This document shows positions 34,968 through 47,760 of a stretch of 47,760 bases of DNA, in pieces. Under the pieces are notes generated by a model. That model was not told the DNA's origin, did no database searches, and worked only from the letters and a program-made list of their open reading frames with translations. Both the position numbers and the translations under genes were made by a program. The stretch's first letter is position 1; each line of letters begins with the position of its first letter. Origin of the DNA: a virus. The DNA lies in the IMG/VR virus record IMGVR_UViG_3300042879_000940, positions 1 to 47,760 of that record. One strand, given 5' to 3'.

Positions 34968-35153
34968 ATGAAGATCCGTAATATTTTTTTATCGTGTATA
35001 CTTGTATTAGGCCTTGGTGGCTGCGGGTATGACGGTCACTATCGCTATCCTTGCCAGGATCCAGTAAACTGGGAAAAGGCAGAATGTAAGCCACCACTTT
35101 GTGAGGCTACAGGAACTTGTACAAAAGACTTGATAGGAAAACAGGATGAGTAA
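34968..35153 (+). CDS. Small lipoprotein
   Basis: A 61-residue protein. ATG 34968 is chosen over upstream in-frame starts because it begins a lipoprotein signal peptide (MKIRNIFLSCILVLGLGGC) with an LGGC lipobox. The mature part has YDGHYRYPCQDP followed by several Cys, a pattern I have seen in small phage lipoproteins. It sits in the lysis region, where an outer-membrane spanin would be expected in Gram-negative hosts, but in an actinobacterium the role could be at the outer surface or in superinfection exclusion. No ribosome site is present; a -10 box six bases upstream suggests a leaderless start. Confidence 0.65.
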   Translation: MKIRNIFLSCILVLGLGGCGYDGHYRYPCQDPVNWEKAECKPPLCEATGTCTKDLIGKQDE

Positions 35154-35556
35154 GCAAAGATTAACACCGCAGGATCTTGATGCACGACTAAAGTTTATTC
35201 TTGGTTGTACACTTGGAGCAATTTTATTATTTACAGCGTTAGGTATTTTATACGCACTTATATTCGTAACACAACCAATTGGAGCACAATCAGAAAATGA
35301 TAAAATGTTTTTCAATGTGCTTGGTTCAGTTGCTACATTTATCACAGGAACACTTGCAGGACTATTAATTGGTCAAAGTGGTGCTAAAGATATTATGCAA
35401 GCACAGATAGATAATAAAAAAGTAGATTCAGAAGTTAGAATGGCAGAAGATAAACTTGATGCAGAGTTAGATGAAGTAAGAGCAAGACTTGCTGCCAAAC
35501 CAGACGGTGCAATGCCAGCAGAGCAACCAGTAGATACTAATTGGGATAAGGAGTAA
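35146..35556 (+). CDS. Two-span membrane protein, candidate holin/antiholin
   Basis: A 136-residue protein with two membrane spans (GCTLGAILLFTALGILYALIF and MFFNVLGSVATFITGTLAGL), a polar loop containing IGAQSEND and a long C-terminal charged helix (AEDKLDAELDEVRARLAAK). It overlaps the lipoprotein by eight bases and is followed within four bases by the endolysin, so a role in lysis timing or in anchoring the endolysin is reasonable. Membrane topology is evident; holin activity is inferred. Confidence 0.55.
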   Translation: MSKQRLTPQDLDARLKFILGCTLGAILLFTALGILYALIFVTQPIGAQSENDKMFFNVLGSVATFITGTLAGLLIGQSGAKDIMQAQIDNKKVDSEVRMAEDKLDAELDEVRARLAAKPDGAMPAEQPVDTNWDKE

Positions 35557-35559
35557 GCA

Positions 35560-36192
35560 ATGGCACAAGATGATTTTCCAGTACCAGCAGCAACAGAGAA
35601 GGCTCCACAAGGAACTGCTGCTCGTCTTATTCAAGTTGCTAAATCTCAGGTAGGCTATATAGAAGGTCCAAAAGATAACGAAACTAAGTACGGTGCTTTT
35701 ATGAAAGCAAATTTCCAACCATGGTGCGGAAGTTTCGTAAACTGGTGTGGGTCAGAATCTGGCGTAAAGATTCCTAATACTGTCTACACTCCAAGTGGTG
35801 CACAGGCTTTTAAGAAGGCTAACTCATGGATTGATGGAGATTTAGCAGATCCAGAGCCAGGAGATATCGCCTATTTTGATTTCCCATCAGATGGCGTCGA
35901 TAGAATTTCTCACGTAGGAATTGTTATTGAAGATAACGAAGATGGAACTGTATGGTGTATTGAAGGAAACACTTCTTCAAAGAAATCAGGAAGCCAAAGA
36001 AATGGTGGAGAAGCCTGTAAGCAACTTCGTGCTTTTAAGAAAAATAAAGCAGGAGTTCAAGTTTCTATCGTAGGGTTTGGTCGTCCTAAGTTTGGCGGTA
36101 AAGCAGCAGCAAAATCCACTACAAAATCTGAGCCTAATAAGACTGTTAAGAATACTAAAACATGCTCAGAATGTGGCCAAACAATCAAGTAA
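35560..36192 (+). CDS. CHAP-domain endolysin
   Basis: A 210-residue peptidoglycan hydrolase. Residues about 10-180 form an NlpC/P60-like CHAP domain with Cys56 in PWCGSFVNW, His118 in ISHVGIV, and a third polar position in CIEGNT (Glu135/Asn137). CHAP enzymes cut an amide or peptide bond in peptidoglycan at the end of infection. The C-terminal 30 residues are Lys/Thr-rich and end with CSECGQTIK, a half zinc ribbon that may aid wall binding. No signal peptide, so release depends on a holin, consistent with the two membrane proteins before it. It is followed by an independent promoter. Confidence 0.85.
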   Translation: MAQDDFPVPAATEKAPQGTAARLIQVAKSQVGYIEGPKDNETKYGAFMKANFQPWCGSFVNWCGSESGVKIPNTVYTPSGAQAFKKANSWIDGDLADPEPGDIAYFDFPSDGVDRISHVGIVIEDNEDGTVWCIEGNTSSKKSGSQRNGGEACKQLRAFKKNKAGVQVSIVGFGRPKFGGKAAAKSTTKSEPNKTVKNTKTCSECGQTIK

Positions 36193-36221
36193 TTGACACA
36201 TTTTTACTTTAATGCTATACT
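36193..36221 (+). promoter_or_regulatory. Near-consensus promoter for the proteasome-like gene
   Basis: TTGACA (36193-36198), a 17-base spacer and TATACT (36216-36221) with an extended TGc. It begins immediately after the endolysin stop. The predicted leader is about 20-25 bases and carries ATAGGAAGG before ATG 36248. Confidence 0.8.
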
Positions 36222-36247
36222 GAATAGTAAATATAGGAAGGCATATC

Positions 36248-36772
36248 ATGACTTGTATTGCTGTTGTACGTCACGAAGATAAAGTCTATATGGCTGGAGA
36301 TCGTGGAGCATCAGATGATGGCACTATTCTAGCACTTGAGGCACCAAAAGTTTGGAAGATAGGTCCGTACCTTATTGGATATGCTGGATCAATGGACGGA
36401 GAAAGAATCCGTTACAACTTTAAACCAACTGCTCCAAACATTAAAGACACAGATAAGTTTATGCAGACTAGATTTATTAAAGAACTAAAAGAATTTTATA
36501 ATGAGTTCTGGGTTGATACATCTAAAGATGGAGACCTTGGTTTGATTATTGCTATTCGTGGTGAGATATATGAGCATAGTTCTGCAGATATGTCTTTATC
36601 TAAATATACACTTCCATACCTTGCTATGGGTTCTGGTGCAGAGTATGCTTACGGTGTCTTGTATGCAACAGATAAACAAAAAAATGCAAGAAATCGTGTG
36701 CATTCTGCTGTAAGCGCAGCAATAAAATTTTCTCCATCCTGTATGGGGCCTATTGACATAGTAAGCATTTAA
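36248..36772 (+). CDS. HslV/proteasome beta-type threonine peptidase
   Basis: A 174-residue protein of the N-terminal nucleophile hydrolase family. After loss of Met1 the numbering matches HslV without gaps: Thr1 (nucleophile), Asp17 in AGDRGA and Lys33, the catalytic set of proteasomal subunits. The later GSGAEYAYGVL segment fits the conserved Gly-Ser near position 129. It probably forms a peptidase chamber. No ATP-driven unfoldase gene is in the window, so it would use a host partner or act on small peptides. It has its own strong promoter. Related phage proteins exist, but no role in the infection cycle is known to me. Confidence 0.8.
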   Translation: MTCIAVVRHEDKVYMAGDRGASDDGTILALEAPKVWKIGPYLIGYAGSMDGERIRYNFKPTAPNIKDTDKFMQTRFIKELKEFYNEFWVDTSKDGDLGLIIAIRGEIYEHSSADMSLSKYTLPYLAMGSGAEYAYGVLYATDKQKNARNRVHSAVSAAIKFSPSCMGPIDIVSI

Positions 36773-36781
36773 GGATATACT
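36753..36781 (+). promoter_or_regulatory. Near-consensus promoter with a leaderless start at 36788
   Basis: TTGACA (36753-36758), 17-base spacer, TATACT (36776-36781) at the end of the proteasome-like gene. Only six bases lie between the -10 and ATG 36788, so the transcript should start at or beside the ATG. Confidence 0.75.
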
Positions 36782-36787
36782 AGAGGT

Positions 36788-36991
36788 ATGAATCATATGG
36801 GTATGGAAGATCTTTCTCCAGAGGAGCAAGAGTTTGGTATCTGGTTACAGAACGGCATTGAGAGAGGCTGGATTAGTGACCCTTATTGCCACACGCATGA
36901 CGGTGGCTATCAGTATATGAGTCAAGAAGAAGTAGAAGAATGGGAAGCAGGAGGCGACCCATGCGAACACGTAATAAGAATATTCATTTAA
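36788..36991 (+). CDS. Small acidic hypothetical protein
   Basis: A 67-residue protein rich in Glu, Trp and Gly, with a conserved-looking segment GWISDPYCHTHDGG holding Cys and two His that could bind a metal. The C-terminus is DPCEHVIRIFI. I do not recognise a function. It has its own near-consensus promoter and, with only six bases between -10 and ATG and no leader, is probably translated leaderless. Confidence 0.6.
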   Translation: MNHMGMEDLSPEEQEFGIWLQNGIERGWISDPYCHTHDGGYQYMSQEEVEEWEAGGDPCEHVIRIFI

Positions 36992-37006
36992 CAGAAAGGT
37001 AATACA

Positions 37007-37879
37007 ATGAAAAAACTACTAACAACACTACTATCACTAACCATTGCTTTGGTACCACTACAGGTGGCACAGGCAAACGATCAAAAGGTTCTTGCCATTA
37101 TTGATACTACTATTGATTCTAGCAAGATTCCATCAGTTATCTATGAAGCATGTTTTGCACAGTCTGGGGCTAATACATCTTGCCCTAATGGATCTGGATT
37201 TATGGAGGGTAAAGGGTCTGCAAACTTACAAATAGTTCCAGCAAAAGGATCATTAAATAATTTTAGTCATGGTACAACTATGACACAAACAGCACTTCTT
37301 ACTAGTCCAGAGGTTAAGATTGTTTTTGTAAGAATTGCCCATATCACACCGAATGGATCTATGGGAGTTAGCAACCCAGAATCTATTTCAAAGGCAGTAG
37401 ACTGGGTGTCTAAGAATGCTTCAAAGTATAGTATTGATGCGGTATCAATTAGTCAATCCTTTACTACCGCAACCAACCTATTACGATGTACAAATGATAC
37501 AACTATCATTAATGCAGTATCCTCACTAAACAATCAGTCAGTTCCAGTTTTTGCTTCTACAGGAAACGATAGACTAACTAATAGAGTTGGCTTCCCATCT
37601 TGTGTTAATGGCGTAATTGGAGTTGGTGCTTTGGCCTGGTCAAAAAATACTAAGTTGCCAACAGACTATACAATTATGAGTCCTGTAACTAATAGAGGTC
37701 CTGGGCTAGATGTTGTTGCACAAGGAGAACAACAAATTGGATCGGTACAGCATACTGGTACATCTATTGCAAGTGTTATTGCAGCATCTTTATATGTAAA
37801 TAAAAATACAGATAGAAATGTTAATAATTTTATTGGTACTTTTTCAAAGGTGCTAACATATCCATACATTTCTAAGTAA
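37007..37879 (+). CDS. Secreted subtilisin-like serine protease
   Basis: A 290-residue S8-family peptidase. A signal peptide (MKKLLTTLLSLTIALVPLQ, cleaved near AQAND) sends it outside the cytoplasm. The catalytic triad is visible: Asp33 (AIIDTTID), His88 (FSHGTTM) and Ser253 (HTGTSIASV), with the oxyanion Asn187 (STGND). No pro-domain is visible between signal and catalytic part, so the mature enzyme would be about 265 residues. It could cleave host surface proteins or process the exported phage proteins nearby. GAAAGG lies ten bases before the start. Confidence 0.85.
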   Translation: MKKLLTTLLSLTIALVPLQVAQANDQKVLAIIDTTIDSSKIPSVIYEACFAQSGANTSCPNGSGFMEGKGSANLQIVPAKGSLNNFSHGTTMTQTALLTSPEVKIVFVRIAHITPNGSMGVSNPESISKAVDWVSKNASKYSIDAVSISQSFTTATNLLRCTNDTTIINAVSSLNNQSVPVFASTGNDRLTNRVGFPSCVNGVIGVGALAWSKNTKLPTDYTIMSPVTNRGPGLDVVAQGEQQIGSVQHTGTSIASVIAASLYVNKNTDRNVNNFIGTFSKVLTYPYISK

Positions 37880-37882
37880 TAG

Positions 37883-37888
37883 TATAAT
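37883..37888 (+). promoter_or_regulatory. -10 box (TATAAT) before gene at 37938
   Basis: TATAAT in the context AGTATAATAGTCCT, right after the protease stop; a very similar AGTATAATTGTCCT occurs at 40811. No good -35. The leader to ATG 37938 would contain the hairpin at 37894. Confidence 0.35.
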
Positions 37889-37893
37889 AGTCC

Positions 37894-37916
37894 TAGGCAA
37901 GACTAAAAACTGCCTA
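37894..37916 (+). other. Short hairpin in the leader of the gene at 37938
   Basis: TAGGCA (37894-37899) and TGCCTA (37911-37916) form a six-base-pair inverted repeat with an 11-base A-rich loop. It is followed by an A/T stretch without a proper T-run, so it is a weak terminator candidate or a leader structure between the -10 box and the AGGAG site. Confidence 0.35.
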
Positions 37917-37937
37917 CAATAAAAATAGGAGAAAATA

Positions 37938-38156
37938 ATGGAATCAAAAAAGAAAAGTTTGCTAAAAACAATTAGTTGGCCATTTGTGCATTTTACTTTT
38001 GTTTCTGGAATAATTTATTTCGTTCTAAAGTATTACACTGGGGAAGCAGAATGGGAATATGTAGGTCTGTATGGACTATCATACCTAACGCTAGAAATGA
38101 CTTTTTTCTATCTTCATGAAAGAATTTGGGCAAGGTTTGGCAAGAAGGTTAAGTAA
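37938..38156 (+). CDS. DUF2061-like small membrane protein
   Basis: A 72-residue protein with a basic N-terminus, two membrane spans (FVHFTFVSGIIYFVLKYY and GLYGLSYLTLEMTFFYL) and a closing HERIWARFG signature. The Lys-Ser-xxx-Ile-Ser-Trp opening and Tyr-x-His-Glu-Arg-x-Trp end match the DUF2061 family, also seen in the gene at 43103. The function of the family is unknown. AATAGGAG is in front of the ATG. Confidence 0.7.
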   Translation: MESKKKSLLKTISWPFVHFTFVSGIIYFVLKYYTGEAEWEYVGLYGLSYLTLEMTFFYLHERIWARFGKKVK

Positions 38157-38257
38157 TGCGTATTAAAATTATTAGATTTATTGTTAAGGCATTAGGGTAT
38201 GAACTGAGCAACGCTCCAAGAGGGATTCAAACCTGGCAATTAAGAAAGAAGAAGTAA
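38156..38257 (+). CDS. Very small basic protein (33 aa)
   Basis: An ORF of 33 residues whose ATG overlaps the DUF2061 stop (TAATG) and whose stop overlaps the next ATG (TAATG), filling the gap exactly. The peptide is basic (MRIKIIRFIVKALGYE, then WQLRKKK). Position and double coupling support a gene, but sequence this short gives no function. Confidence 0.5.
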   Translation: MRIKIIRFIVKALGYELSNAPRGIQTWQLRKKK

Positions 38258-38442
38258 TGCCTTCATATGAATATGACTGTATGCCTTGTGCAAAACGGTA
38301 TATTAAAGAAAGATCTATAAAGGAAAGCGACCCAGGGTACACCTGCGAAACTTGCAATGCTACCCTGGTTCGTGTATACTCTAATGTAGGAGTTACATTC
38401 AACGGCTCTGGTTTTTATCAAACTGATAATAGAAAGGTATAA
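38257..38442 (+). CDS. FmdB-like zinc-ribbon protein
   Basis: A 61-residue protein with the FmdB-family signature: MPSYEYDCMPC at the start, a second pair TCETC near residue 30, and FNGSGFYQTD near the end. The four Cys would form one zinc ribbon. FmdB-type proteins are small putative regulators of unknown mechanism. It overlaps the preceding small ORF by one base. Confidence 0.75.
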   Translation: MPSYEYDCMPCAKRYIKERSIKESDPGYTCETCNATLVRVYSNVGVTFNGSGFYQTDNRKV

Positions 38443-38443
38443 T

Positions 38444-38692
38444 ATGTTTAGTATGCTCAAGAATAAGGAAGAAGAGAAGGTATGGCTTCTTGATGCCAAT
38501 GATCGCTGTGACAGATGTGCTGCTCAGGCGTATGTTAAGGTTGTTGGTAAGTCTGGGTCGTCCCTTTTGTTCTGCGGACATCACTACAATAAGGCAATGG
38601 ATAATGCAATTGGATATGACAATATGATGAAGTTTGCCTTAGAAATTCTTGATGAACGAGATAGACTAATCGAAAATAGATCAGAAAATTAA
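38444..38692 (+). CDS. DUF7455-like actinobacterial protein
   Basis: An 82-residue protein with DRCDRCAAQAYVKVV, a Gly/Ser turn, SLLFCGHHYNKA and a C-terminal acidic helix. This Cys-xx-Cys plus Cys-Gly-His-His set is characteristic of a short actinobacterial family (DUF7455) and should bind zinc. It supports an actinobacterial host. The TATAAT at 38438 touches the start codon and is not taken as a promoter; AGAAAGG six bases before ATG is a reasonable ribosome site. Confidence 0.7.
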   Translation: MFSMLKNKEEEKVWLLDANDRCDRCAAQAYVKVVGKSGSSLLFCGHHYNKAMDNAIGYDNMMKFALEILDERDRLIENRSEN

Positions 38693-38705
38693 TTAGAGGA
38701 TAACA

Positions 38706-39293
38706 ATGAATATCTTGGGTAAAGATTACGAAAAGGTGCTCTATGTTCACATACCTAAAACTGCTGGGTCGTCTATCACTAAAGTATTGCAGGACAATAA
38801 TTTAGATAATTGGATAAGAGCATATCCAAGGCACCACGATCCATATTTTTATTTAGCACAGGCAAACAATGTTGATGATAAGGTATTTTCATTTTCTACC
38901 ATACGAAATCCTTATACTCGTACATATAGTTCTTTGCATCAATATAATAGAGCAAACAAAACTAATCTATCATTTATGGAATATCTTAATAATATATTAG
39001 AAAAGAGAATATCCAAGATCAGCCCTTTGATACATCTGCCACAAGCGTGGTATGTAACAGATTCAAATAATAATATATTAGTAACAAAGTTATATAGGTT
39101 TGAAAATATTAAAGAGTTAGAGCAAGATCTTAACTGGGAGATAGGCTCATACCATATAGGAAATTACACTAAAGATATGTATATAGAAGCATATACAGAT
39201 GTTGCAATAGATATTGTAAAAAAGTTTTATGCAATAGACTTTTCTCTATTTGGATATTCTACCAACTTCGAAGAGACATTGGAGCAAAGATGA
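38706..39293 (+). CDS. Sulfotransferase-family protein
   Basis: A 195-residue protein with both PAPS-binding signatures of the sulfotransferase fold: the 5'-phosphosulfate loop HIPKTAGSS at 15-23 and the 3'-phosphate motif STIRNPYTRTYS at 64-75 (Arg67). It resembles the Sulfotransfer_2 group, which moves sulfate from PAPS to sugars. The rest is helical with Trp/Tyr-rich segments. It is shorter than most such enzymes (about 250-300) but not obviously truncated. The APS-kinase-like gene at 42293 could supply the donor. AGAGGAT precedes the ATG. The acceptor is unknown. Confidence 0.8.
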   Translation: MNILGKDYEKVLYVHIPKTAGSSITKVLQDNNLDNWIRAYPRHHDPYFYLAQANNVDDKVFSFSTIRNPYTRTYSSLHQYNRANKTNLSFMEYLNNILEKRISKISPLIHLPQAWYVTDSNNNILVTKLYRFENIKELEQDLNWEIGSYHIGNYTKDMYIEAYTDVAIDIVKKFYAIDFSLFGYSTNFEETLEQR

Positions 39294-39868
39294 GAAAGTC
39301 AGAAGAAGATTTTAATGTAAAAAAGCATGCCGAATATGATGTTTCAGAATTGCATGATTATGTAAATAATTTTTCAGATGAGTGGTTGCTGGACACAAGC
39401 AGACAAAATAGACCAAATACGCCACACACACAAACTAACACATACTATATTTATACTAGCAGTATTCACTGGAAGCATATGGAAAAGTTCGTCACTAATA
39501 AAATATCTCAAGACGAAAAACTACTACAACTAGTAGAGCCAATAGTCAAAGATTTAGAAAGAATACATAATGGTGTTCGTGGCAATGTGCTTTTAATTAA
39601 ACTTAAGGCAAAAGAAGATGTTGCTATGCATGAGGATACTGGGGATTACTTGATGATGTCCCGCAGAAACCATGTGCCAATCATTACTACTGGAGATGTA
39701 GTATTTGGAGTTGGATCTGAACGCATTAGTATGAAAACTGGCGAATGTTGGGAAATAAATAATTACAGATTTCACTGGGTAGATAACAACAGTGAAATAG
39801 ATAGAGTTCATTTATTGATAGACATCATGCCATACGAGATCATAGGAGATAATCATGTACGAATATAG
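39290..39868 (+). CDS. Aspartyl/asparaginyl hydroxylase-like oxygenase
   Basis: A 192-residue protein. The second half has the layout of the Asp/Asn beta-hydroxylase family: MHEDTGDY (His114, Asp116), a Gly-Asp-Val-Val-Phe strand, WEINNYRFHWVDNNS (His162) and RVHLLIDIMP with an Arg (172) to hold 2-oxoglutarate. It probably hydroxylates a side chain or small molecule using Fe(II). Its ATGA overlap with the sulfotransferase suggests coupled expression. The substrate is unknown. Confidence 0.65.
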   Translation: MRKSEEDFNVKKHAEYDVSELHDYVNNFSDEWLLDTSRQNRPNTPHTQTNTYYIYTSSIHWKHMEKFVTNKISQDEKLLQLVEPIVKDLERIHNGVRGNVLLIKLKAKEDVAMHEDTGDYLMMSRRNHVPIITTGDVVFGVGSERISMKTGECWEINNYRFHWVDNNSEIDRVHLLIDIMPYEIIGDNHVRI

Positions 39869-40271
39869 AGTAAAAAAGTTAACTAATGTAGTAGACGGAG
39901 ATACAATTGATGTCGAGATCGACCTTGGTTTTAATGTGTCGTATGCACAAAGAGTTCGTTTGGCTGGTATAGATACTCCAGAATCAAGAACTACAGATAA
40001 GGCTGAAAAAGTATTGGGTCTTGAATCTAAAGAGTACTTGAAATCAAAGTTAAAAGATGCTAAACTTATAGTAATTAAAACAGAAAAGCCAGACTCTTCT
40101 GAGAAGTATGGTCGTATTTTAGGGTGGTTATATGTTGATGGAAATACTATTTCTGTTAACGATCAGATGATTGAGGACGGATATGCGTGGGGTTATCTTG
40201 GAGATACCAAGGTAAAAGATTTTTCTGCTCTTGCCAAGCAAAGAGAAATTACAAAAAAGAAAGCAAAATAA
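39855..40271 (+). CDS. Thermonuclease-like (SNase) protein
   Basis: A 138-residue protein with the staphylococcal-nuclease pattern: VVDGDTIDVEI (metal-binding Asp pair), RVRLAGIDTPES with catalytic Arg, and KYGRILGWLYV with the second Arg. It would cut DNA or RNA with calcium. No signal peptide, so it acts inside the cell, perhaps on host nucleic acid. It overlaps the hydroxylase-like gene by 14 bases. Confidence 0.9.
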   Translation: MYEYRVKKLTNVVDGDTIDVEIDLGFNVSYAQRVRLAGIDTPESRTTDKAEKVLGLESKEYLKSKLKDAKLIVIKTEKPDSSEKYGRILGWLYVDGNTISVNDQMIEDGYAWGYLGDTKVKDFSALAKQREITKKKAK

Positions 40272-40496
40272 ATGGATGCTAGAACTAATGCTTTAGTAGA
40301 GCATTTGGTTTTACAGGGCGGTATCGAAATCGAAGATATTGATATTGAAACTGGTGAAACATACTACACTATAACCGATAAGTTAAAAGATATGGCTCCA
40401 GAGTTATACAAGGAATTAGATGATCAGTTTAAACATCATCTTTTTGTTCTTGGTAAGCGTGGTCCAGAGTCAATGGTTTGGAGAATAAGGGGTTAA
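40272..40496 (+). CDS. Small protein, copy 1 of a tandem pair
   Basis: A 74-residue acidic protein without a known family. Its core is LVLQGGIEIEDID, ETGETYYTITDKLKDMAPELYKELD and HHLFVLGKRGPESM. The neighbouring gene repeats this plan closely, so the two arose by duplication. The ATG follows the preceding stop directly. Confidence 0.55.
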   Translation: MDARTNALVEHLVLQGGIEIEDIDIETGETYYTITDKLKDMAPELYKELDDQFKHHLFVLGKRGPESMVWRIRG

Positions 40497-40497
40497 A

Positions 40498-40812
40498 ATG
40501 GAGATAGAAGATTTAATTTTAAGTGGTGCAATAGAGCCAGCAGGGGTAGATCCTGAGACTGGTGAAATGCTATATAATTTTACGGATAAGTTAAAAGATG
40601 TTAGCCCTCTTTTACATCAAGAGGTAAATAATGCTTTTAATTCTCATGTTATGAGACTGTGGGAGTTAGGAATGGTGAGCATGGACGTTACTGCTAAAAA
40701 TCCACTGGTTCAGTTAACAGAAAAATCTTTTGATCCTGATTTAATATCTCAGTTAAATGATGAAGAACTTTATACGTTAAAGGAAATTAAGAGAAACTTA
40801 TTAAGACAGTAG
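40498..40812 (+). CDS. Small protein, copy 2 of a tandem pair
   Basis: A 104-residue paralogue of the previous gene: LILSGAIEPAGVD, ETGEMLYNFTDKLKDVSPLLHQEVN and HVMRLWELGMVSM align with the first copy without gaps. It has an additional acidic C-terminal helix of about 35 residues (LISQLNDEELYTLKEIKRN). Function unknown; the shared TDKLKD helix might be a protein-interaction element. Confidence 0.55.
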   Translation: MEIEDLILSGAIEPAGVDPETGEMLYNFTDKLKDVSPLLHQEVNNAFNSHVMRLWELGMVSMDVTAKNPLVQLTEKSFDPDLISQLNDEELYTLKEIKRNLLRQ

Positions 40813-40818
40813 TATAAT
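40813..40818 (+). promoter_or_regulatory. -10 box (TATAAT) before gene at 40834
   Basis: Consensus -10 in the context AGTATAATTGTCCT directly after the stop of the previous gene, 15 bases before ATG 40834. The same context occurs at 37881. No -35. Confidence 0.35.
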
Positions 40819-40833
40819 TGTCCTGGTGATACA

Positions 40834-41256
40834 ATGGAATATATTATAGGATTTTTATCTGCTATTGTTTTTGTATATTTTCTTGTCCGTATTCAAAATA
40901 AATATGATGTACTAAGGGTAAGGCTAAAATTTTCTAAGGCTACTCAGAGTAGGAACCATTATTTATTTGAAAGGGATGTTGATGTTGTACAGAAAAAGAA
41001 AAAAGAAGTAAATAGGCAATCTGCAAAACATGATAAAAATGTCAATATCAGGGTAATAATCATGGACAATCAGGCCTATTGGATTAAAGATAATGTTTTT
41101 TATACTGCAGAACTTAACCATGGTATTGTTGATAAGGAAACTACAAAAGAAGTTGACACAATGACCATGAATAAGGTACAATTAGATAAAATGATATTCA
41201 TCATTGATAGATTAAGAGAAGAGGCTTTTGATGATCGTTGGGGTTCAGGGTACTAG
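40834..41256 (+). CDS. Membrane-anchored hypothetical protein
   Basis: A 140-residue protein with one N-terminal membrane span (EYIIGFLSAIVFVYFLVRI), then a basic cytoplasmic part with a Lys-rich helix (VVQKKKKEVNRQSAKHDK) and a small beta region with IRVIIMDNQAYWIKDN. I do not recognise the family. The end overlaps the next gene by 26 bases. Confidence 0.5.
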   Translation: MEYIIGFLSAIVFVYFLVRIQNKYDVLRVRLKFSKATQSRNHYLFERDVDVVQKKKKEVNRQSAKHDKNVNIRVIIMDNQAYWIKDNVFYTAELNHGIVDKETTKEVDTMTMNKVQLDKMIFIIDRLREEAFDDRWGSGY

Positions 41257-41581
41257 TGGTTTTAGTGACTACCAAGTTTTTCTTCGTGCCGTAGGCGTTG
41301 CTTTATCAAGTATGGCCGAAGATGACGAATACTTTTATATATACACTGCTGGTCCAGCAAATGTAAATAAGATGGTTATGGAGTTTGTAAATGTTTCTGA
41401 AAAAGGAATGAAGTCCCGTGGTAAAAAAATTAAAATGTTTAAGGTAGCACCACAGTGGATGTCAGAAAATATTTTAGATATTAATTATTTTGTATTTTTA
41501 TCAAAGCCAAAAGAAAATGCATCAAAGTTAGTAGCACAAGCACAATTAAATAATATCGAAGTCGGAATATTTCAATACTAG
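41231..41581 (+). CDS. SLOG/Rossmann-like small protein
   Basis: A 116-residue protein. I start at ATG 41231 (GAAGAGG upstream) instead of TTG 41228. MIVGVQGTSGFSDYQVF at the start, a YIYTAGPANVNKM strand-turn, a Lys-rich FKVAPQWM segment and a FVFLSKPKENASKLVAQAQ helix resemble the SLOG superfamily of nucleotide-binding proteins (YpsA/DprA type). The conserved Gly-Ser-Arg is not perfect (Gly-Thr-Ser-Gly). If correct it may bind a nucleotide or a signalling molecule. Confidence 0.45.
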   Translation: MIVGVQGTSGFSDYQVFLRAVGVALSSMAEDDEYFYIYTAGPANVNKMVMEFVNVSEKGMKSRGKKIKMFKVAPQWMSENILDINYFVFLSKPKENASKLVAQAQLNNIEVGIFQY

Positions 41582-41588
41582 GAGAAAA

Positions 41589-41813
41589 ATGATAGTAAAA
41601 GAATTAGAGCAAATGGAAAAAATTGTATCCAAAAATAGGAATTTGTTTTGGGATGGATGGACTGTAGTTAGTATATATAAATCTGATAAGGCTAAAACAT
41701 CAAAGAGCGGAATGTATGTAAATGGTAACTGGTGTATGTCAAAAAGATTTGAGCCGAATAGGAATGGTTGGGATATTCCAGAAAGGCTAGTGCTGGGGTA
41801 TGCACAAACTTAA
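41589..41813 (+). CDS. Small hypothetical protein
   Basis: A 74-residue protein with Trp- and Lys-rich segments: NLFWDGWTVVSIYKSD, a KAKTSKSGMYVNGNWC turn, and NGWDIPERLV near the end. It is probably a small basic domain, but no family is recognised. AGGAGA precedes the ATG, and the following whiB-like gene overlaps its end by 14 bases, so the two are likely co-expressed. Confidence 0.5.
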   Translation: MIVKELEQMEKIVSKNRNLFWDGWTVVSIYKSDKAKTSKSGMYVNGNWCMSKRFEPNRNGWDIPERLVLGYAQT

Positions 41814-42093
41814 ATGGAAAGACGATGCTTCTTGTTTAGATTATGATACAAATTTATTTTTTGAGAAATACGAAGAAGAAGAGTTATTAAGACCAGCAAT
41901 TGATGCCTTGTGCATTGAGTGTCCAGTAATACAAACATGCTTTGCTGTAGGTGTATCAAGCAAAGAATACGGTGTTTGGGGCGGTATTTATTTGGAAGCA
42001 GGAGCAATCTCAAAAGAGTTTAATAGCCATAAAACAGAAAGTGATTGGGGCAATACATGGAAGCACCTTACCACTGAAGAAGACTACAAATGA
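41800..42093 (+). CDS. whiB: WhiB-family iron-sulfur regulator
   Basis: A 97-residue protein with the four Cys of WhiB proteins (Cys12, Cys38, Cys41, Cys47) and the turn GVWGG at 58-62. WhiB proteins carry a 4Fe-4S cluster and bind the sigma factor to alter promoter choice; they are confined to Actinobacteria and their phages. It lacks the basic C-terminal AT-hook typical of several host WhiBs and ends acidic. A phage copy may redirect host transcription or block the host's own WhiB. GGGG upstream of the ATG serves as ribosome site. Confidence 0.88.
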   Translation: MHKLKWKDDASCLDYDTNLFFEKYEEEELLRPAIDALCIECPVIQTCFAVGVSSKEYGVWGGIYLEAGAISKEFNSHKTESDWGNTWKHLTTEEDYK

Positions 42094-42296
42094 ATAACAA
42101 AGAGTATTTAGATTTTATAAGAAAAAAGAATAAAGAAATCTTATCAAAATGTTATTATTGTGATGGTTTTGCCATAACTATAATTGCTGATGGTTATGCC
42201 ATTAAGCCTGTCTGCAAAGAGCATGATAGTCGATCATTTGATATAATGGAAGAAGACATTAACACAATATTCGAGAAACAGAGGGACTTTGAATGA
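42090..42296 (+). CDS. Small protein with possible zinc site
   Basis: A 68-residue protein starting in ATGA overlap with whiB. It has CYYCDG near residue 21 and VCKEHDS near 42, i.e. three Cys and one His suited to a zinc ion, followed by an acidic helix. It could bind a protein or nucleic acid partner. Function unknown. Confidence 0.5.
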   Translation: MNNKEYLDFIRKKNKEILSKCYYCDGFAITIIADGYAIKPVCKEHDSRSFDIMEEDINTIFEKQRDFE

Positions 42297-43054
42297 TTAT
42301 TCAGATTATAGGTCTTCCAGGATCAGGAAAGACTGAACTGGCAAAGGCACTAAAGGAACGCATTAATGCTATTCATCTAAATGCAGATGAGGTTCGTGCT
42401 ACAGTAAACTCAGACCTTGGCTTTAGTCATGAAGATAGAATTGAACAGGCAAGAAGAATGGGTGAGATGGCTCGTCTTATTGCAAAGCAGGGGGTCGCTC
42501 CAGTAATTGTTGACTTTGTTTGTCCTACAGAATTAACTCGTGCAGCATTTGGAAAGCCAGATATTTTAATTTATATGGAAACAATTGAAGAGGGTAGGTT
42601 TGAAGATACTAACAAGATGTTTGAAACCCCAACCAATTTTGATATGGCTTTTATTAGTCACGAGTGGGATCCAAACGAAAAGGCAACAGAGATAATCAAA
42701 CAATTTAATTTGCATGACTGGTCTGCACCTACAACATTGATGCTTGGCAGGTACCAGCCTTGGCATGAAGGCCACCACGCTCTATACAAAGAGGCGGGTA
42801 AAAGAACAGATCAGGTACTTCTTGGAGTACGTAATACATACAATACAAGTGAGAAAGATCCACTTAAGTTTGATCAGGTAAAAGAATATATTGCCAAGGA
42901 CGACTTTATGGATGGGGCATTAGTATTAAGACTACCTAACATTACCAACATTGTATATGGCCGTGATGTAGGATATAAGATTGAGCAAGTAGATTTGGGG
43001 GCAGACATTCATGCTATATCGGCTACGCAAAAGCGTAAAGAGATGGGTATCTAA
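42293..43054 (+). CDS. Fusion: APS-kinase-like P-loop domain plus HxGH nucleotidyltransferase
   Basis: A 253-residue, two-domain protein. Residues 1-140 resemble adenylylsulfate kinase: P-loop GLPGSGKT at 7-14, HLNADEVRATV and the APS-kinase-type LGFSHEDRIEQARRMGE segment. APS kinase makes PAPS, the sulfate donor. Residues 145-253 form a Rossmann nucleotidyltransferase: GRYQPWHEGHHALY with HEGH at 158-161 and ISATQKR at 242-248. That second signature is closer to NMN- or cytidylyl-transferases than to ATP sulfurylase. Either it activates another small molecule, or the fusion replaces a sulfurylase. ATGA overlap with the preceding gene. The sulfate link is inferred from the sulfotransferase at 38706. 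Confidence 0.75.
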   Translation: MIIQIIGLPGSGKTELAKALKERINAIHLNADEVRATVNSDLGFSHEDRIEQARRMGEMARLIAKQGVAPVIVDFVCPTELTRAAFGKPDILIYMETIEEGRFEDTNKMFETPTNFDMAFISHEWDPNEKATEIIKQFNLHDWSAPTTLMLGRYQPWHEGHHALYKEAGKRTDQVLLGVRNTYNTSEKDPLKFDQVKEYIAKDDFMDGALVLRLPNITNIVYGRDVGYKIEQVDLGADIHAISATQKRKEMGI

Positions 43055-43106
43055 GGTTTGGAAAGTAATTAGTAAAGGCCCTGACAATATGGAGTGGCCA
43101 GCATGA
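43011..43106 (+). CDS. Possible very small gene (31 aa) overlapping the kinase end
   Basis: An ORF from ATG 43011 that overlaps the end of the preceding gene by 44 bases and the next ATG by four (ATGA). The product has a basic helix (RLRKSVKRWVSKVWKVI) and ends SKGPDNMEWPA. The bridging overlaps argue for a gene, but there is no clear ribosome site and it could be chance. Confidence 0.3.
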   Translation: MLYRLRKSVKRWVSKVWKVISKGPDNMEWPA

Positions 43107-43306
43107 ATGTATCCAAACAAAGATCAGCACTAAAGGCCATTACATGGCGTATAATTGGAACAGCAGATACATTTGCTATTGCTTGGCTTATAACCAAAGA
43201 GCCAGTTACAGCAGGTGCAATCGCAAGTTTCGAGGTAGTTACAAAAACAATCCTTTATTACTTCCATGAGCGTGGTTGGAATAAAGTTAAATGGGGTAGA
43301 AAATAA
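43103..43306 (+). CDS. DUF2061 small membrane protein
   Basis: A 67-residue protein started at ATG 43103 (GGAG eight bases upstream), not GTG 43094. It has the DUF2061 signature: KAITWRIIGTADTFAIAWLI, TAGAIASFEVVTKTILYYFHERGWN. Two membrane spans. It is a more typical member than the protein at 37938. The family is membrane-located with unknown function. Confidence 0.85.
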   Translation: MNVSKQRSALKAITWRIIGTADTFAIAWLITKEPVTAGAIASFEVVTKTILYYFHERGWNKVKWGRK

Positions 43307-43545
43307 TGTATACAGATTCTATGCGTAGAGCATTTAAGTCCTTAGATCATTTTTGCCCTAAAGGCTTTAGTTTAGAGTTAGTGGATAATGATAGTTTTAT
43401 TACTGTTCGTGCATCAGAAAAATCTTTTATGTCACTATTTGACGAAGATAAGCGTCGTGCTGTAGAATATATGATAAGAGTCAAAAAGGCACTTGAGGAT
43501 AATGGAGCAATTGTCCTATTAGTTCGTGAAGGCGGTAAAGAATAA
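43306..43545 (+). CDS. Small hypothetical protein
   Basis: A 79-residue protein with a mixed fold: helix (MRRAFKSLDHFCP), strand pair (SLELVDNDSFITVRAS), helix (KRRAVEYMIRVKKALEDNG) and a final strand (AIVLLVREGG). I do not recognise the family. It sits in one-base overlap with both neighbours, so it is part of a coupled operon with the DNA-repair protein behind. Confidence 0.5.
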   Translation: MYTDSMRRAFKSLDHFCPKGFSLELVDNDSFITVRASEKSFMSLFDEDKRRAVEYMIRVKKALEDNGAIVLLVREGGKE

Positions 43546-44030
43546 TGCAAACATTTTTACCATCAGCAAATGCAGCAACCTCTGCTCGGTTTCTTGATAG
43601 CAAGCGTTTAAACAAGCAAATACTTGAGTGTTACCAAATACTTAATGTCTTGTCTGGTAAGTCTAAGGGTGGTGGCTGGCGAAATCATCCAGCAGTTCTT
43701 ATGTGGAAAGGCTATGAGCGTGGCTTATGGCAGTATGTTCAGGCTATGATTCGTGAGGCTAAGTTGCGAGGTATTCGTACAGAAAACAATGAAGCCAATC
43801 TCAATACTTTAAAAGACTTGTGTTGGGATATTTGGGGAGATAATCCTCCATCTTTTTGGAATGATAAAACTAAACTTATGCGTGTAGTAACAACACACAA
43901 GGCAAGTCTATTTGATAAAGATCCTATATTCTATTCAAGGTTTGGTTATGCAAAGCATAGCATTTACAACAGTCCATGCTGCTCTAAGTGCAAGTATTAT
44001 TGGGTAACACATGAGGGTAGAAATGCTTGA
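43545..44030 (+). CDS. Pyrimidine-dimer glycosylase-like protein (MSMEG_6728 type)
   Basis: A 161-residue protein resembling the pyrimidine-dimer DNA glycosylase/MSMEG_6728 family: MQTFLPSANAATSARFLD, KRLNKQILECYQIL, then GWRNHPAVLMWKGYE. The family is related to T4 endonuclease V and removes UV-damaged bases. The C-terminal part has a CCSKC zinc knuckle. The activity is inferred from family resemblance; T4-type N-terminal Thr is not at position 2. Confidence 0.75.
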   Translation: MQTFLPSANAATSARFLDSKRLNKQILECYQILNVLSGKSKGGGWRNHPAVLMWKGYERGLWQYVQAMIREAKLRGIRTENNEANLNTLKDLCWDIWGDNPPSFWNDKTKLMRVVTTHKASLFDKDPIFYSRFGYAKHSIYNSPCCSKCKYYWVTHEGRNA

Positions 44031-44388
44031 GTTTGCTATATTTTTAATTTTTTTTACTCTAATAACTATACTATCAATAATCATTGTAAGATTAAAAAAT
44101 GTAAACTTGCAATTAGTTATTGCAATAGATCAGGCAATTGCAGATATTGAAGTTTTGAGTTTGCGATCTAATGAAACGCCTACTGAAAAAGAACACCTTT
44201 TGTCATTTTTAAATGAAACTCGTGACATTGCATACAAATATATAGAGGAGGTTCATACTGCTTTATTAGAATATAAAGAAGAAATTGAGTATGACTTAAA
44301 TAATCCAAGTGAACTATCTATACATAGACTTAAAAATGCTTTTAAAAAGTTAGAAAAAATATATCCAAAGGACATTCCAAATGATTAA
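44011..44388 (+). CDS. Membrane-anchored helical protein
   Basis: A 125-residue protein with one N-terminal membrane span (FAIFLIFFTLITILSIIIV) and a long charged helical domain (EEVHTALLEYKEEIEYDL, RLKNAFKKLEKIYP), suggesting a coiled coil at the inner membrane face. No family recognised. It overlaps the glycosylase-like gene by 20 bases. Confidence 0.5.
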   Translation: MRVEMLEFAIFLIFFTLITILSIIIVRLKNVNLQLVIAIDQAIADIEVLSLRSNETPTEKEHLLSFLNETRDIAYKYIEEVHTALLEYKEEIEYDLNNPSELSIHRLKNAFKKLEKIYPKDIPND

Positions 44389-44578
44389 TGCAAGAGGAAT
44401 ACCTACAGCAAACTGCCCTGAATGTGGATGCGATCTTTTAAAGGTTAATGTAAAAATTGATCCAATAGATTATGAGATAGGGCTATATACATTGGACGGT
44501 GAGTGTGCTAAATGTGGTGCCCTGGTTACTGTTGCCACCCCACTTGACCATCCTGATTTTCAAAAAGGAGAAAAATGA
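44381..44578 (+). CDS. Zinc-ribbon protein
   Basis: A 65-residue protein with CPECGCDL near residue 12 and CAKCGALV near 42, i.e. one four-Cys zinc ribbon separated by an acidic beta region. It overlaps the previous gene by eight bases and ends in ATGA overlap with a short membrane protein gene. Function unknown. Confidence 0.6.
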   Translation: MINARGIPTANCPECGCDLLKVNVKIDPIDYEIGLYTLDGECAKCGALVTVATPLDHPDFQKGEK

Positions 44579-44733
44579 AAGAGATTATATTCTCAGTTTT
44601 AACTGGTTTTGGCTGCGGTTTGGTGTTTGCAATCTTTAAACTACCAGTTCCAGCCCCACCAGTGTTTGCTGGAGTTGCTGGTATAATTGGACTATGGCTC
44701 GGATACGATGTCATAACAAGGTTCATATCCTAG
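44575..44733 (+). CDS. XapX-domain small membrane protein (52 aa)
   Basis: A short gene in ATGA overlap with the zinc-ribbon gene, with AAAAGGAG in front. The protein is two membrane spans around a conserved Pro-rich turn (KLPVPAPPVFAG) and a closing GLWLGYDVI, the pattern of the XapX family (DUF1427), whose function is unknown. The length is typical of that family. Confidence 0.75.
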   Translation: MKEIIFSVLTGFGCGLVFAIFKLPVPAPPVFAGVAGIIGLWLGYDVITRFIS

Positions 44734-44743
44734 GAGGAATAAA

Positions 44744-45043
44744 ATGAAACTTAAAGAAAAACAAAAGAAAATGCTAGAGACTTATGTTGCATCATTTGGT
44801 GTTGCTGTAGCACAGTCATATCAGGCTAACAGCGATCTTGGAATAGATGGCTTACTAATTGCAGGTTTAATTGCAGTAGTAGGACCAGCGATAAGAGCGA
44901 TCAATCCAAAAGATCCTGCGTTTGGTTGGGTAGCAAATGTGGCTGATGCAGAACTTAAGAAGTTGGCTAAGAAGGCTGAAACAAAGAAGAAGGCTCCTGC
45001 AAAGAAGTCTGGCGGTGGCGGTAAGCCATCACAAATGGCATAA
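44744..45043 (+). CDS. Membrane-associated protein, possible second holin
   Basis: A 99-residue protein with an amphipathic N-terminus, a hydrophobic segment (GLLIAGLIAVVGPAIRAI), then ELKKLAKKAETKKKAPAKKS, a highly basic tail. TAGGAGG precedes the ATG. This layout (one to two short spans, Lys-rich end) is seen in some phage holins and also in small virion proteins. A terminator-like hairpin follows. Holin status is a guess. Confidence 0.5.
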   Translation: MKLKEKQKKMLETYVASFGVAVAQSYQANSDLGIDGLLIAGLIAVVGPAIRAINPKDPAFGWVANVADAELKKLAKKAETKKKAPAKKSGGGGKPSQMA

Positions 45044-45058
45044 TAGCCTTATAAAAGG

Positions 45059-45090
45059 AATAGGGATGGGTTGTTGACATCCCTATTTCT
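45059..45090 (+). terminator. Probable intrinsic terminator
   Basis: A perfect 10-bp stem (AATAGGGATG with CATCCCTATT) around a nine-base loop, followed by a short T-rich stretch. It lies after the Lys-rich protein gene and before the carbamoyltransferase unit. The weak T-run lowers confidence. Confidence 0.55.
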
Positions 45091-45112
45091 AATAAAAGTA
45101 AAAGGATAAAGC

Positions 45113-45211
45113 GTGATAATTAAATATTATTTTTATAAAATTTTTAAAAAAATAAAAAAAGTTATTTTTTTTAAAAAGAAAAAAGACACAAACAGAGAGT
45201 TTATATACTAA
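45113..45211 (+). CDS. Possible very small basic peptide (32 aa)
   Basis: A GTG-started ORF, with AAAAGGAT upstream, in a strongly A/T-rich gap of 168 bases. The peptide is Lys/Phe/Tyr-rich (MIIKYYFYKIFKKIKKVIFF) and its stop directly touches the carbamoyltransferase ATG. It may be a coupled leader ORF for a gene lacking its own clear ribosome site, or chance in low-complexity DNA. Confidence 0.35.
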   Translation: MIIKYYFYKIFKKIKKVIFFKKKKDTNREFIY

Positions 45212-46633
45212 ATGATTATACTTGGAATTAATGAAACATCACATGATGCTTCTGTGTCTTTAATTAAAGATGGTGAAATACTATTTGCTGGTCATGCTGA
45301 AAGATATTCTAAAAACAAAAATGATTGGTATAACAATAAAGATATTTATTCCGATATGCTTAATTATGGAACTCCAACACACATAGCATACTATGAGCAT
45401 TCTCAACTTAAAAGATCACGTATATTATTAAGAGGTGGGGCAGCAGACTGGAAGCCTAAGATTCCTATGGATCTTCCAGTAAAATACTTTAGTCATCACT
45501 ACTCCCACGCATGTGCTGGATACTATACAAGTAAGTTTAATGACGCAGTAATTGTTGTGCTAGATGCTATTGGCGAATACAATACTTCAACTATATGGGT
45601 TGGAGAAGGCAGCAAGATTAAGCCAATTAAAAAGTTTAACTACCCGTTTAGTTTTGGTTTATTTTACTCTGCATTTACTCAACTTGTAGGGTTGAAGCCA
45701 AATGAAGAAGAATATATTCTTATGGGAATGGCTGGGTATGGAGATCCTGAAAGATATTTCCACAAAGTAAAAGATTATTTCCCATCAATGTCTCAACAAA
45801 AATATAACTTTCATAAGGGCATTATTGATTGGGATGAGCCTATTGGACAACAGGAAAAATTTGATATTGCTGCTGCCGTTCAAAAAGTATATGAGCAAAG
45901 GCTTATGGAATTTATGCGATATGCAAAAGCCAAAACAGGAAAAGAAAATCTTGTCTTTATGGGTGGGTGTGCACTTAACTGTTCTGCAAATACAAAGTTA
46001 TGGGATATATTTAGTGATATTTGGATTATGCCAAACCCTGGCGATGCTGGAAGTTCTTTGGGCGCAGCAGCAGCCTTGTACGGTAAACATTTAAATTGGC
46101 AATCACCTTATCTTGGCTATGATCTTGGTGGAGATTACCCAGTTCAGAAAATTCTGGACGGTATATTTGAAGACGGAATCGTAGCAGTAGCAACAGGTAG
46201 AGCAGAATACGGTCCAAGAGCATTAGGAAACAGATCTATCTTGGCTGATCCAACAGATCCAGACATCAAGAATAAGGTTAATTTAATTAAAAAGAGAGAG
46301 TTATTCAGACCATTTGCCCCAGTAGTTATGGCAGAACATGCATCAGAATGGTTTGATATGAATTATGAATCTCCGTATATGCAGTATGCTGTCAAATGCT
46401 TGAAGCCTGACCTAATACCATCAGTAGTTCATGTGGATGGTACTTCTCGTGTTCAAACAGTAACAAAAGATCAGCACCCTGGACTATATACTTTATTAGA
46501 AAAATTTTACTCAGTAACTGGTGTGCCTATATTATTAAATACAAGTTTAAATATTAAGGGGCAACCACTATTAAATGATATGAATGATGTAAAGATTTTT
46601 AATGAAATTAATAGGTTTAATATAATAACATGA
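45212..46633 (+). CDS. NodU/CmcH-family carbamoyltransferase
   Basis: A 473-residue protein that should move a carbamoyl group from carbamoyl phosphate, via ATP, to a hydroxyl on a sugar or similar acceptor. The N-terminal part (LGINETSHDASVSL, FSHHYSHACAGY with metal-binding His95/His96/His99, and VVVLDAIGE) is the Carbam_trans_N domain; the C-terminal part (GRAEYGPRALGNRSILADP, FRPFAPVV and ILLNTSLNIKGQPL) is the YrdC-like ATP domain. It is somewhat shorter than NodU (about 560). Its end overlaps the SGNH-like gene by four bases. In phages such enzymes are rare; substrate unknown. Confidence 0.92.
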   Translation: MIILGINETSHDASVSLIKDGEILFAGHAERYSKNKNDWYNNKDIYSDMLNYGTPTHIAYYEHSQLKRSRILLRGGAADWKPKIPMDLPVKYFSHHYSHACAGYYTSKFNDAVIVVLDAIGEYNTSTIWVGEGSKIKPIKKFNYPFSFGLFYSAFTQLVGLKPNEEEYILMGMAGYGDPERYFHKVKDYFPSMSQQKYNFHKGIIDWDEPIGQQEKFDIAAAVQKVYEQRLMEFMRYAKAKTGKENLVFMGGCALNCSANTKLWDIFSDIWIMPNPGDAGSSLGAAAALYGKHLNWQSPYLGYDLGGDYPVQKILDGIFEDGIVAVATGRAEYGPRALGNRSILADPTDPDIKNKVNLIKKRELFRPFAPVVMAEHASEWFDMNYESPYMQYAVKCLKPDLIPSVVHVDGTSRVQTVTKDQHPGLYTLLEKFYSVTGVPILLNTSLNIKGQPLLNDMNDVKIFNEINRFNIIT

Positions 46634-47544
46634 CGAGTAATAGAAATCTTTTTGAGTTTGATAATCTGTTTTCACGATCCTTAAAGTCGATGGGTGGCAA
46701 AATTCAAGAAGGACCATGGCCTATAGATACTGATCGTTTAGAGGTATTGTATACTCACAATTCTTACGGCTATAGGTGTGAAGAATTTAATAACCAGGAA
46801 GTTTTAATTTTAGGATGTTCTTATACCAGAGGTGATGGACTACCATTAGAAGTAACATGGCCACATATGCTTGCTAATAAAATGAATAAACCTTATATTA
46901 ATTTAGCAAAAGGTGGAGATGGAATGCAGGCTCAAGTTTTTAAGGCATTTCAATTTTTTAGAGAGTTCCATAATCCAAAATATATTTTTGGACTTTTTCC
47001 TTTGACAAGATTAGAAATGCCATATGTAAAGGATGTATTTGCTGTAGATAAAAATCCTAAAGTAGTTGATGTTAATGGAAAATATATTCAGAATGTTTTT
47101 ATTTCAAATAGAAAAATTGAAAAATTTTCAAAATTACCACATAGTATTGATGAAATCTTGCCAGAAGAGGCTGCAATATTTTATAACTTAATGTTTATAC
47201 AAATGTTAGATCAGTATTGCAAAGCAAATAATATTAAATTTTTATGGACAGTTTATAATGATTTAGAATATAAAGGAAACAACAGTGATTTGCTAAATAA
47301 ACTTAAGTTAGATAGTTATTTTAGTGAGCCGTCTCTCAACTGGAGCGACTACCCTATTGAGCATGATCAATGTCACGCAGATCTTTCTAATGATCAATTC
47401 TTTTACTATGCTGCAGACTCTATGGAGCAACCTCTGAAACTATCGCAACAGTACCTTGATATTTATCGTCCTACGGGTGGTCATGGTCATTGGGGCTTTC
47501 ACAAACATATTCACCTTGCAGATACTATATATAATCTAATATAA
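46630..47544 (+). CDS. SGNH/GDSL-like hydrolase
   Basis: A 304-residue protein with the SGNH blocks: block I LILGCSYTRGDGL (Ser nucleophile), block II INLAKGGDGMQ (Gly), and a C-terminal HGHWGFHKHIHLAD whose His/Asp could complete the triad. The central part is helical and Trp/Tyr-rich. It overlaps the carbamoyltransferase by four bases (ATGA), so the two act together; it might deacylate or esterify the same sugar. A canonical block III Asn was not seen with certainty, so activity is inferred. Confidence 0.65.
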   Translation: MTSNRNLFEFDNLFSRSLKSMGGKIQEGPWPIDTDRLEVLYTHNSYGYRCEEFNNQEVLILGCSYTRGDGLPLEVTWPHMLANKMNKPYINLAKGGDGMQAQVFKAFQFFREFHNPKYIFGLFPLTRLEMPYVKDVFAVDKNPKVVDVNGKYIQNVFISNRKIEKFSKLPHSIDEILPEEAAIFYNLMFIQMLDQYCKANNIKFLWTVYNDLEYKGNNSDLLNKLKLDSYFSEPSLNWSDYPIEHDQCHADLSNDQFFYYAADSMEQPLKLSQQYLDIYRPTGGHGHWGFHKHIHLADTIYNLI

Positions 47545-47724
47545 TTATGCGTTTTTGATATCATTCAAAATAGCATCAGCCAAACCCTTATCAAAGTGGG
47601 CATGTCCAGCAGAAAGACGATCAAATTGAGGGGCTAACAAATTAACAATCCTATTTTTTGTTGCCTGAATAATCTGATGCACCATGATTTCTGCTTGCTG
47701 TTCTGTGGTAAGTTCTTCATTCAT
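47545..47724 (-). CDS. Small acidic protein on the minus strand (59 aa)
   Basis: The only minus-strand gene I support. It runs from ATG (complement of 47722-47724) to TAA at 47545, ending exactly where the convergent SGNH-like gene ends. The product begins MNEELTTEQQAEIMVHQII and ends FDKGLADAILNDIKNA; both ends are helical. No ribosome site, but a -10 box lies six bases upstream, so a leaderless start fits. Function unknown. Confidence 0.6.
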   Translation of the reverse strand: MNEELTTEQQAEIMVHQIIQATKNRIVNLLAPQFDRLSAGHAHFDKGLADAILNDIKNA

Positions 47725-47730
47725 AATCTA

Positions 47731-47739
47731 ATTCTATCA
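47731..47739 (-). promoter_or_regulatory. Extended -10 (TGa-TAGAAT) for the minus-strand gene
   Basis: Reading the minus strand, TG-A-TAGAAT is followed by six bases and ATG, the same leaderless spacing as other genes here. -35 not visible. Confidence 0.4.
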
Positions 47740-47746
47740 TAACCTA

Positions 47747-47755
47747 TGCTATACT
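47747..47755 (+). promoter_or_regulatory. Extended -10 (TGc-TATACT) pointing out of the window
   Basis: A plus-strand extended -10 starting eight bases beyond the minus-strand element, probably driving a gene to the right of the window. The two form a divergent promoter pair at a strand switch. Confidence 0.45.
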
Positions 47756-47760
47756 ATTTA

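Follow-up and report, generated by a model that had tools for sequence, protein, structure and literature searches.

The window analyzed here, i.e., the whole stretch of 47,760 bases that constitutes one IMG/VR virus record, carries on its plus strand a complete open reading frame of 290 amino acids (positions 37007-37879), and its product is a subtilase of peptidase family S8 that is predicted to be exported. Upstream and on the same strand lie, in this order, genes for a small membrane protein, a CHAP-domain endolysin, an HslV-like peptidase, and a 67-amino-acid protein. The membrane protein (35146-35556), found in 15 of the 74 distinct S8 loci compared, showed hydrophobic segments by eye and gave only weak Pfam matches; it is a possible holin. 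The endolysin (35560-36192; PF05257, 2.6e-10) recurred in 70 of these loci, and in many relatives its gene follows the S8 gene. The HslV-like peptidase (36248-36772; phrog_1040 and PF00227) is the conserved left neighbor, present in 69 loci, and a DUF7455 protein was likewise encoded in 69. The 67-amino-acid protein (36788-36991), which contains Cys and His residues and whose gene ends 15 bases before the S8 gene, was found in 56 loci, and it had no match in the phage collection and no clear Pfam family. The position occupied by the S8 gene is referred to below as the slot. To its right, a small DUF2061 membrane protein is encoded (37938-38156, plus strand; PF09834, 1.4e-6), and after the slot region, sulfotransferase-like and aspartyl/asparaginyl hydroxylase-like genes (38706-39868) recur in 26 and 29 of the 74 loci, respectively. 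It was also observed that an internal HslV/proteasome-like peptidase with its own consensus promoter is paired with an exported protease in the 69 loci mentioned.

The Asp33/His88/Asn187/Ser253 set listed by the sequence-only reading is complete, and these residues sit in the expected motifs IID, HG, TGN, and GTS. As a single sequence, the protein had no match in Pfam or PHROGs, and a single-sequence search of the PDB returned only chance matches to frataxin. Among 29 family members, PF00082 matched 7 (best 8.9e-13), the other 22, including the window protein, being below Pfam detection, and phrog_3677, annotated as "protease", matched 13. When the profile of the 29 members was compared with solved subtilisins, a match at 9.2e-13 was obtained. 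In agreement, an AlphaFold2 model generated from the 29 sequences (pLDDT 86.6; an earlier model from four sequences, with pLDDT 47.7, was set aside) aligned with subtilisin BPN' over 216 residues with a Z of 25.9 and an rmsd of 2.1. The earlier call of a secreted subtilisin-like protease at this position was thus borne out by the triad, the fold, the profiles of the relatives, and the predicted signal peptide described below.

A viral scan with a four-sequence S8 alignment gave 52 loci, and the scan with the 29-sequence alignment confirmed 237 relatives; we kept the best 80. The Asp, His, and Ser of the triad stand in the S8 order: Asp33 and His88, together with Asn187, were unchanged in all 141 distinct coding sequences, and Ser253 in 139. 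The sole members without the catalytic Ser, L050 and L053, are close relatives with truncated S8 genes, reflecting either true loss or faulty assembly. That close relatives might have lost the triad had been named beforehand as one outcome that would speak against the reading, and no such loss was seen except by truncation in these two sequences. In S8 pairs at 80-99.6% protein identity (n = 286), the median dN/dS was 0.14, and this value, along with the conserved residues, suggested an enzyme kept active by selection. Collectively, the triad, the fold, and the selection indicate an active-looking, catalytically competent subtilase. The phage-record collection contained distant S8 matches only, and no S8 relatives were found in bacterial or archaeal genomes by two pattern scans and tblastn, searches that distant cellular subtilases could escape. 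With no cellular relative in two scans against 237 viral relatives in one, the idea of a recent acquisition from a host gained no support.

The N-terminus of the protein reads MKKLLTTLLSLTIALVPLQVAQA, followed by ND, and by direct reading this is a predicted Sec signal peptide covering residues 1-23 (37007-37075, plus strand), with an Ala23 that is invariant in the relatives. A signal-peptide heuristic was positive for 74 of 74 distinct S8 relatives and for 60 of 896 other open reading frames of at least 110 residues, 39 of these 60 belonging to one family. The heuristic missed several metalloprotease-like proteins of types A and B (see below), in which the start codon gives a hydrophobic segment lacking the usual positive residue. 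From the signal peptide to the catalytic Asp there are about 10 residues, and the pro-domain of classical extracellular subtilisins is thus absent, as had been claimed. Since residue 25 of the model aligns with BPN' residue 24, the mature enzyme would start at the strand carrying the catalytic Asp. The fold, the Asp/His/Ser triad, the oxyanion Asn, and the export signal are shared with peptidase S8 (PF00082; subtilisin BPN'), whereas the slot S8 lacks the pro-domain and the first 23 residues of mature BPN', and its family has four conserved cysteines. The enzyme would have to fold without an intramolecular chaperone, and two disulfides among the four cysteines may help.

The terminase and the DNA polymerase of the window were 55.5% and 55.4% identical, respectively, to their counterparts in Streptomyces phages (Yaboi, LukeCage, BillNye, and others), and the gene order (tail genes, helicase, primase, polymerase, UvsX, Cas4-like, and terminase) resembled that of Yaboi (Stanwilliamsviridae). 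To judge from these genes, the window most likely derives from an uncultured actinophage related to Stanwilliamsviridae. Its long relatives measure 98-123 kb, suggesting that the window is probably only part of a genome. An actinobacterial host is suggested by the Streptomyces-phage relatives and by the DUF7455 protein, a family that we take to be biased toward actinobacteria. Phages of this kind have been linked to lakes; our label "freshwater" stems from these links and from papers on lake actinophages, not from the habitats of the IMG/VR samples. Actinomycetia phage DSL-LC01 was considered as a lake relative and rejected; in the 45-kb stretch compared, it has an HslV gene, but the gene order is different, and no subtilase is annotated there. 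The title of the corresponding paper terms these genomes metagenome-assembled (PMC10611076). No tRNA genes were found in the window, and no near DNA match to positions 35001-47760 was found among phage records.

To avoid picking loci by their S8 gene, we sampled loci anchored on the terminase (80 loci) or on HslV (two scans of 80 loci each). Downstream sequence of 8 kb or more was available for 22 of the terminase-anchored loci; an S8 was in place in 18 of these, and the other four encoded there a trypsin-like protein (L149) or a metalloprotease-like protein (L112, L146, and L153). From the total of 240 loci, 54 without HslV, 21 that were too short, and 42 duplicates were removed, leaving 123 distinct slots. 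These were occupied by S8 in 83 cases, by trypsin-like S1 proteases in 7, by metalloprotease-like proteins of type A in 10 and type B in 5, and by other secreted proteins in 4, and 14 had no secreted occupant; after collapsing at 90% identity (n = 102), the numbers were 67, 5, 9, 5, 4, and 12, respectively. All five S1 occupants tested were above the Pfam Trypsin cut-off, and His, Asp, and Ser were invariant in the five aligned. HExxH was present in 13 of the 15 metalloprotease-like occupants (type A, 8/10, L285 and L294 being the exceptions; type B, 5/5); this motif is the sole basis for calling them putative zinc proteases, and no curated family passed the cut-off. Compared with solved structures, the type A profile gave only weak matches near HExxH (best 0.02) and one M66 match just under the cut-off, and the type B profile matched mainly through a proline-threonine linker, with no convincing relative; elsewhere in the genomes, the type B profile matched no more than the N-terminal module and the linker. 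Types A and B (L267, L278, L153, L330, and others) have in common this N-terminal module, CPKxxxNKxxxxxICxKxGxxYRW, and the linker, and differ in their catalytic parts. The four other secreted occupants (L213, L309, L315, and L326; 4/123) form a fourth family of 223-241 amino acids with no known catalytic motif, and the one tested had no Pfam match. We considered whether the 67-amino-acid protein could act in trans on S8, as a pro-peptide or an inhibitor, an idea we do not favor because its gene also precedes S1 and metalloprotease-like occupants as well as slots lacking a secreted occupant.

Among the 12 long relatives (98-123 kb), 9 had a single S8, and the other 3 had no S8 but one type A protein; no S1 match was found in any of the 12. 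In the 14 records without a secreted slot occupant, no S8 was found elsewhere in a search that ran without a concurrent positive control, and the three longest of them (38, 44, and 54 kb) encoded a trypsin-like protein at another site. The other eleven are fragments of 8-31 kb, so that the absence of a protease there says little. The statement that exported phage proteases are unusual proved too strong, as viral subtilases are known and most phages with this locus encode an exported protease there. The same data bear on the suggestion that the enzyme matures the phage's own proteins, either its surface proteins or its endolysin, a thought for which there is some ground in that genes for a PA14-domain protein and for the endolysin lie close by. 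However, all relatives have a signal peptide, whereas virions assemble in the cytoplasm, and unrelated catalytic classes in one slot do not fit a single specific cleavage. We thus consider this role extremely unlikely, and the part of the sequence-only reading that proposed it for surface proteins was not sustained.

The promoter sequences set this cassette apart. Exact consensus promoters, TTGACA-17-TATACT, precede the HslV-like gene (36193-36221, plus strand) and the 67-amino-acid gene with the S8 gene behind it (36753-36781, plus strand), and these were the only exact plus-strand matches to TTGACA-N17-TATANT in the window; unlike the slot cassette, the terminase and tail genes had no consensus promoters. 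On the other strand, in the interval separating the tail genes from the replication genes, an exact consensus promoter was found at 17085-17114, directed against the genes, along with a plus-strand near-consensus at 17432. A count of plus-strand TTGAC.-N17/18-TATA.T sites over the 123 census loci (1.20 Mb) gave 280, 109 at the 67-amino-acid gene, 104 at HslV, 21 at CHAP, and 46 elsewhere. At the 67-amino-acid gene, the ATG followed the -10 box at a distance of 6 bases in every such site (110 of 110), and this constant spacing points to a leaderless transcript. A site directly at S8 was found in 1 of 75 cases, equal to the shuffled rate, suggesting that S8 is probably co-transcribed with the 67-amino-acid gene. 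By sequence match, the cassette has dedicated host-type consensus promoters, a match that is silent on the timing of expression. Among CHAP genes, 21 of the 49 lying downstream of the slot had a site, against 0 of the 54 lying upstream.

These positions and promoters are where a contribution to lysis has to be weighed. According to this explanation, the exported protease would weaken wall proteins so that holins and endolysin burst the cell, acting as an accessory like LysB, on protein and not on lipid. The slot adjoins holin-like genes and the CHAP endolysin in nearly all loci, the endolysin when downstream has the same promoter type in part of the cases, and the LysB of mycobacteriophages is also a hydrolase whose gene adjoins that of the endolysin, is rarely missing, and is highly diverse (PMC6116114). 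Nevertheless, the slot has host-type promoters of its own, which the upstream CHAP never showed; the turnover of S8 is much faster than that of the endolysin, as detailed below; and the three phages with an empty slot and a trypsin-like gene have their S1 protease at another site. LysB itself is a lipolytic alpha/beta hydrolase with GxSxG, traits not found in the slot S8, which has the subtilisin fold and a GTS motif in S8 context; the slot enzyme is a protease with a signal peptide, and several unrelated folds occur at the slot. Given the position and the parallel with LysB, a role in lysis is a serious rival, though less probable than the surface modification discussed below.

The comparison of close relatives showed how the slot changes. 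For L063, identity to the window was 95-100% between 34.9 and 37.0 kb and 93-100% between 38.2 and 39.4 kb, whereas across 37.0-38.2 kb, the segment with S8 and the DUF2061 gene, identity fell to 49-77%, with S8 proteins 51% identical; upstream beyond 34 kb, L063 was again more different (83%). Locally, near-identical phages were distinguished almost solely by the protease gene. In L012, the signal-peptide region of S8 was kept (92%), and divergence began right after it. Where HslV was 97-100% identical (139 pairs), S8 had a median identity of 60.7%, the 67-amino-acid protein 88.9%, and the endolysin 86.7%. When pairs were chosen by HslV DNA (95% identity or more; n = 37), the occupant class differed in 7, and 3 of these involved a slot with no secreted occupant. 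Allele and class differences within near-identical flanks indicate that the slot turns over by replacement, both within S8 and between unrelated folds. The S8 gene is thus the exchangeable cargo of a fixed slot, in which alleles and catalytic classes (S8, S1, and zinc-type) replace each other while the flanks stay unchanged. The description of the surroundings as an accessory region was only partly right: the locus is syntenic and adjoins lysis genes and is not a random accessory region.

Since fold and mechanism are replaced and an exported protease is nonetheless retained, proteolysis outside the membrane is suggested as the selected function, and extracellular protein cleavage would seem to be of importance to these phages. 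One way to read this is nutrient release, in which extracellular protein would be digested and the infected cell would take up the peptides, a task for which any unspecific protease would suffice; interchangeable, unrelated catalytic classes and predicted export are what it would call for. A free secreted enzyme would, however, be subject to dilution in open water, the conserved neighborhood contains no genes for uptake, and fast allele turnover is unexpected for general digestion, so that we hold nutrient release to be unlikely. Exported, exchangeable, and fast-evolving cargo would also suit antagonism of other organisms, for instance bacterial competitors or flagellates grazing on infected cells, and a review on lake phages puts forward the idea that grazers are affected by proteins encoded by phages (PMC6802176). 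The S8, however, has no cell-binding domain, and we hold this role to be very unlikely.

Fast allele turnover in near-identical neighborhoods is a pattern of host- or competitor-facing genes more than of housekeeping lysis, and it favors modification of the surface of the infected cell itself. We counted in its favor the fold and conserved triad, the low dN/dS, the signal peptide, the mixture of protease classes in the census and their replacement within near-identical flanks, the cassette's own consensus promoters, and the single protease per genome in the 12 long relatives, and against it the position by the holin-like genes and the endolysin, which also fits lysis, the shared promoter type of CHAP when downstream, and the 14 of 123 slots without a secreted occupant. 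The sequence of events would be as follows. The S8, made from one transcript with the 67-amino-acid protein off a host-type promoter, would be exported from the infected actinobacterial cell through the Sec pathway and, outside the membrane, would cut surface proteins of its own host cell; surface proteins serving as receptors would be destroyed or altered, and competing phages would thus be excluded. We infer that the exported protease may modify the surface of the infected cell, with superinfection exclusion as the likeliest benefit, and we give this reading a probability of roughly 40%. More tentatively still, the promoter-headed slot might be a surface-shaving system in phage-phage competition, with the protease in the slot varying according to which surface proteins different host strains have. 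Of the roles proposed at the outset, an exported subtilase is thus predicted, and cutting of the host surface is the best reading of its purpose.

Subtilases encoded by phages are known (phrog_3677; Acinetobacter phage MD-2021a, Bacillus phage SP-15, and Lactococcus phage AM4), and the slot S8 has this trait in common with them; identity was about 23-35% at best, over part of the protein, in a comparison made by protein and not by the HslV, 67-amino-acid, and slot arrangement. Phage morons, found mostly in prophages, are exchangeable single-gene cargo with their own promoter between conserved genes. The slot resembles them in its own promoter and its exchangeable single-gene cargo and differs in that the cargo is nearly always a secreted protease. 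The enzyme adds a member to S8, and its combination of features is unusual, with predicted export, no pro-domain, and no close cellular relative found, 22 of 29 single members being unmatched by PF00082, in a field where viral subtilases were already known. No description of an exported-protease slot in actinophages was found in the literature, of which coverage was incomplete and which included the available parts of PMC10202952, PMC6802176, PMC11039613, PMC6116114, PMC10611076, and PMC2873492, and the exchangeable protease slot looks new.

The locus is present in hundreds of environmental phage contigs, with 237 S8 relatives in one scan and 537 HslV-like relatives. It offers a marker for annotation, as the gene that follows the HslV-like and 67-amino-acid genes is usually a secreted protease, even if unnamed in databases. 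The replacement of protease classes at a fixed locus is good evidence of a need for exported proteolysis itself, and it raises the question of which extracellular proteins these phages cut, and whether this cutting decides who infects whom.
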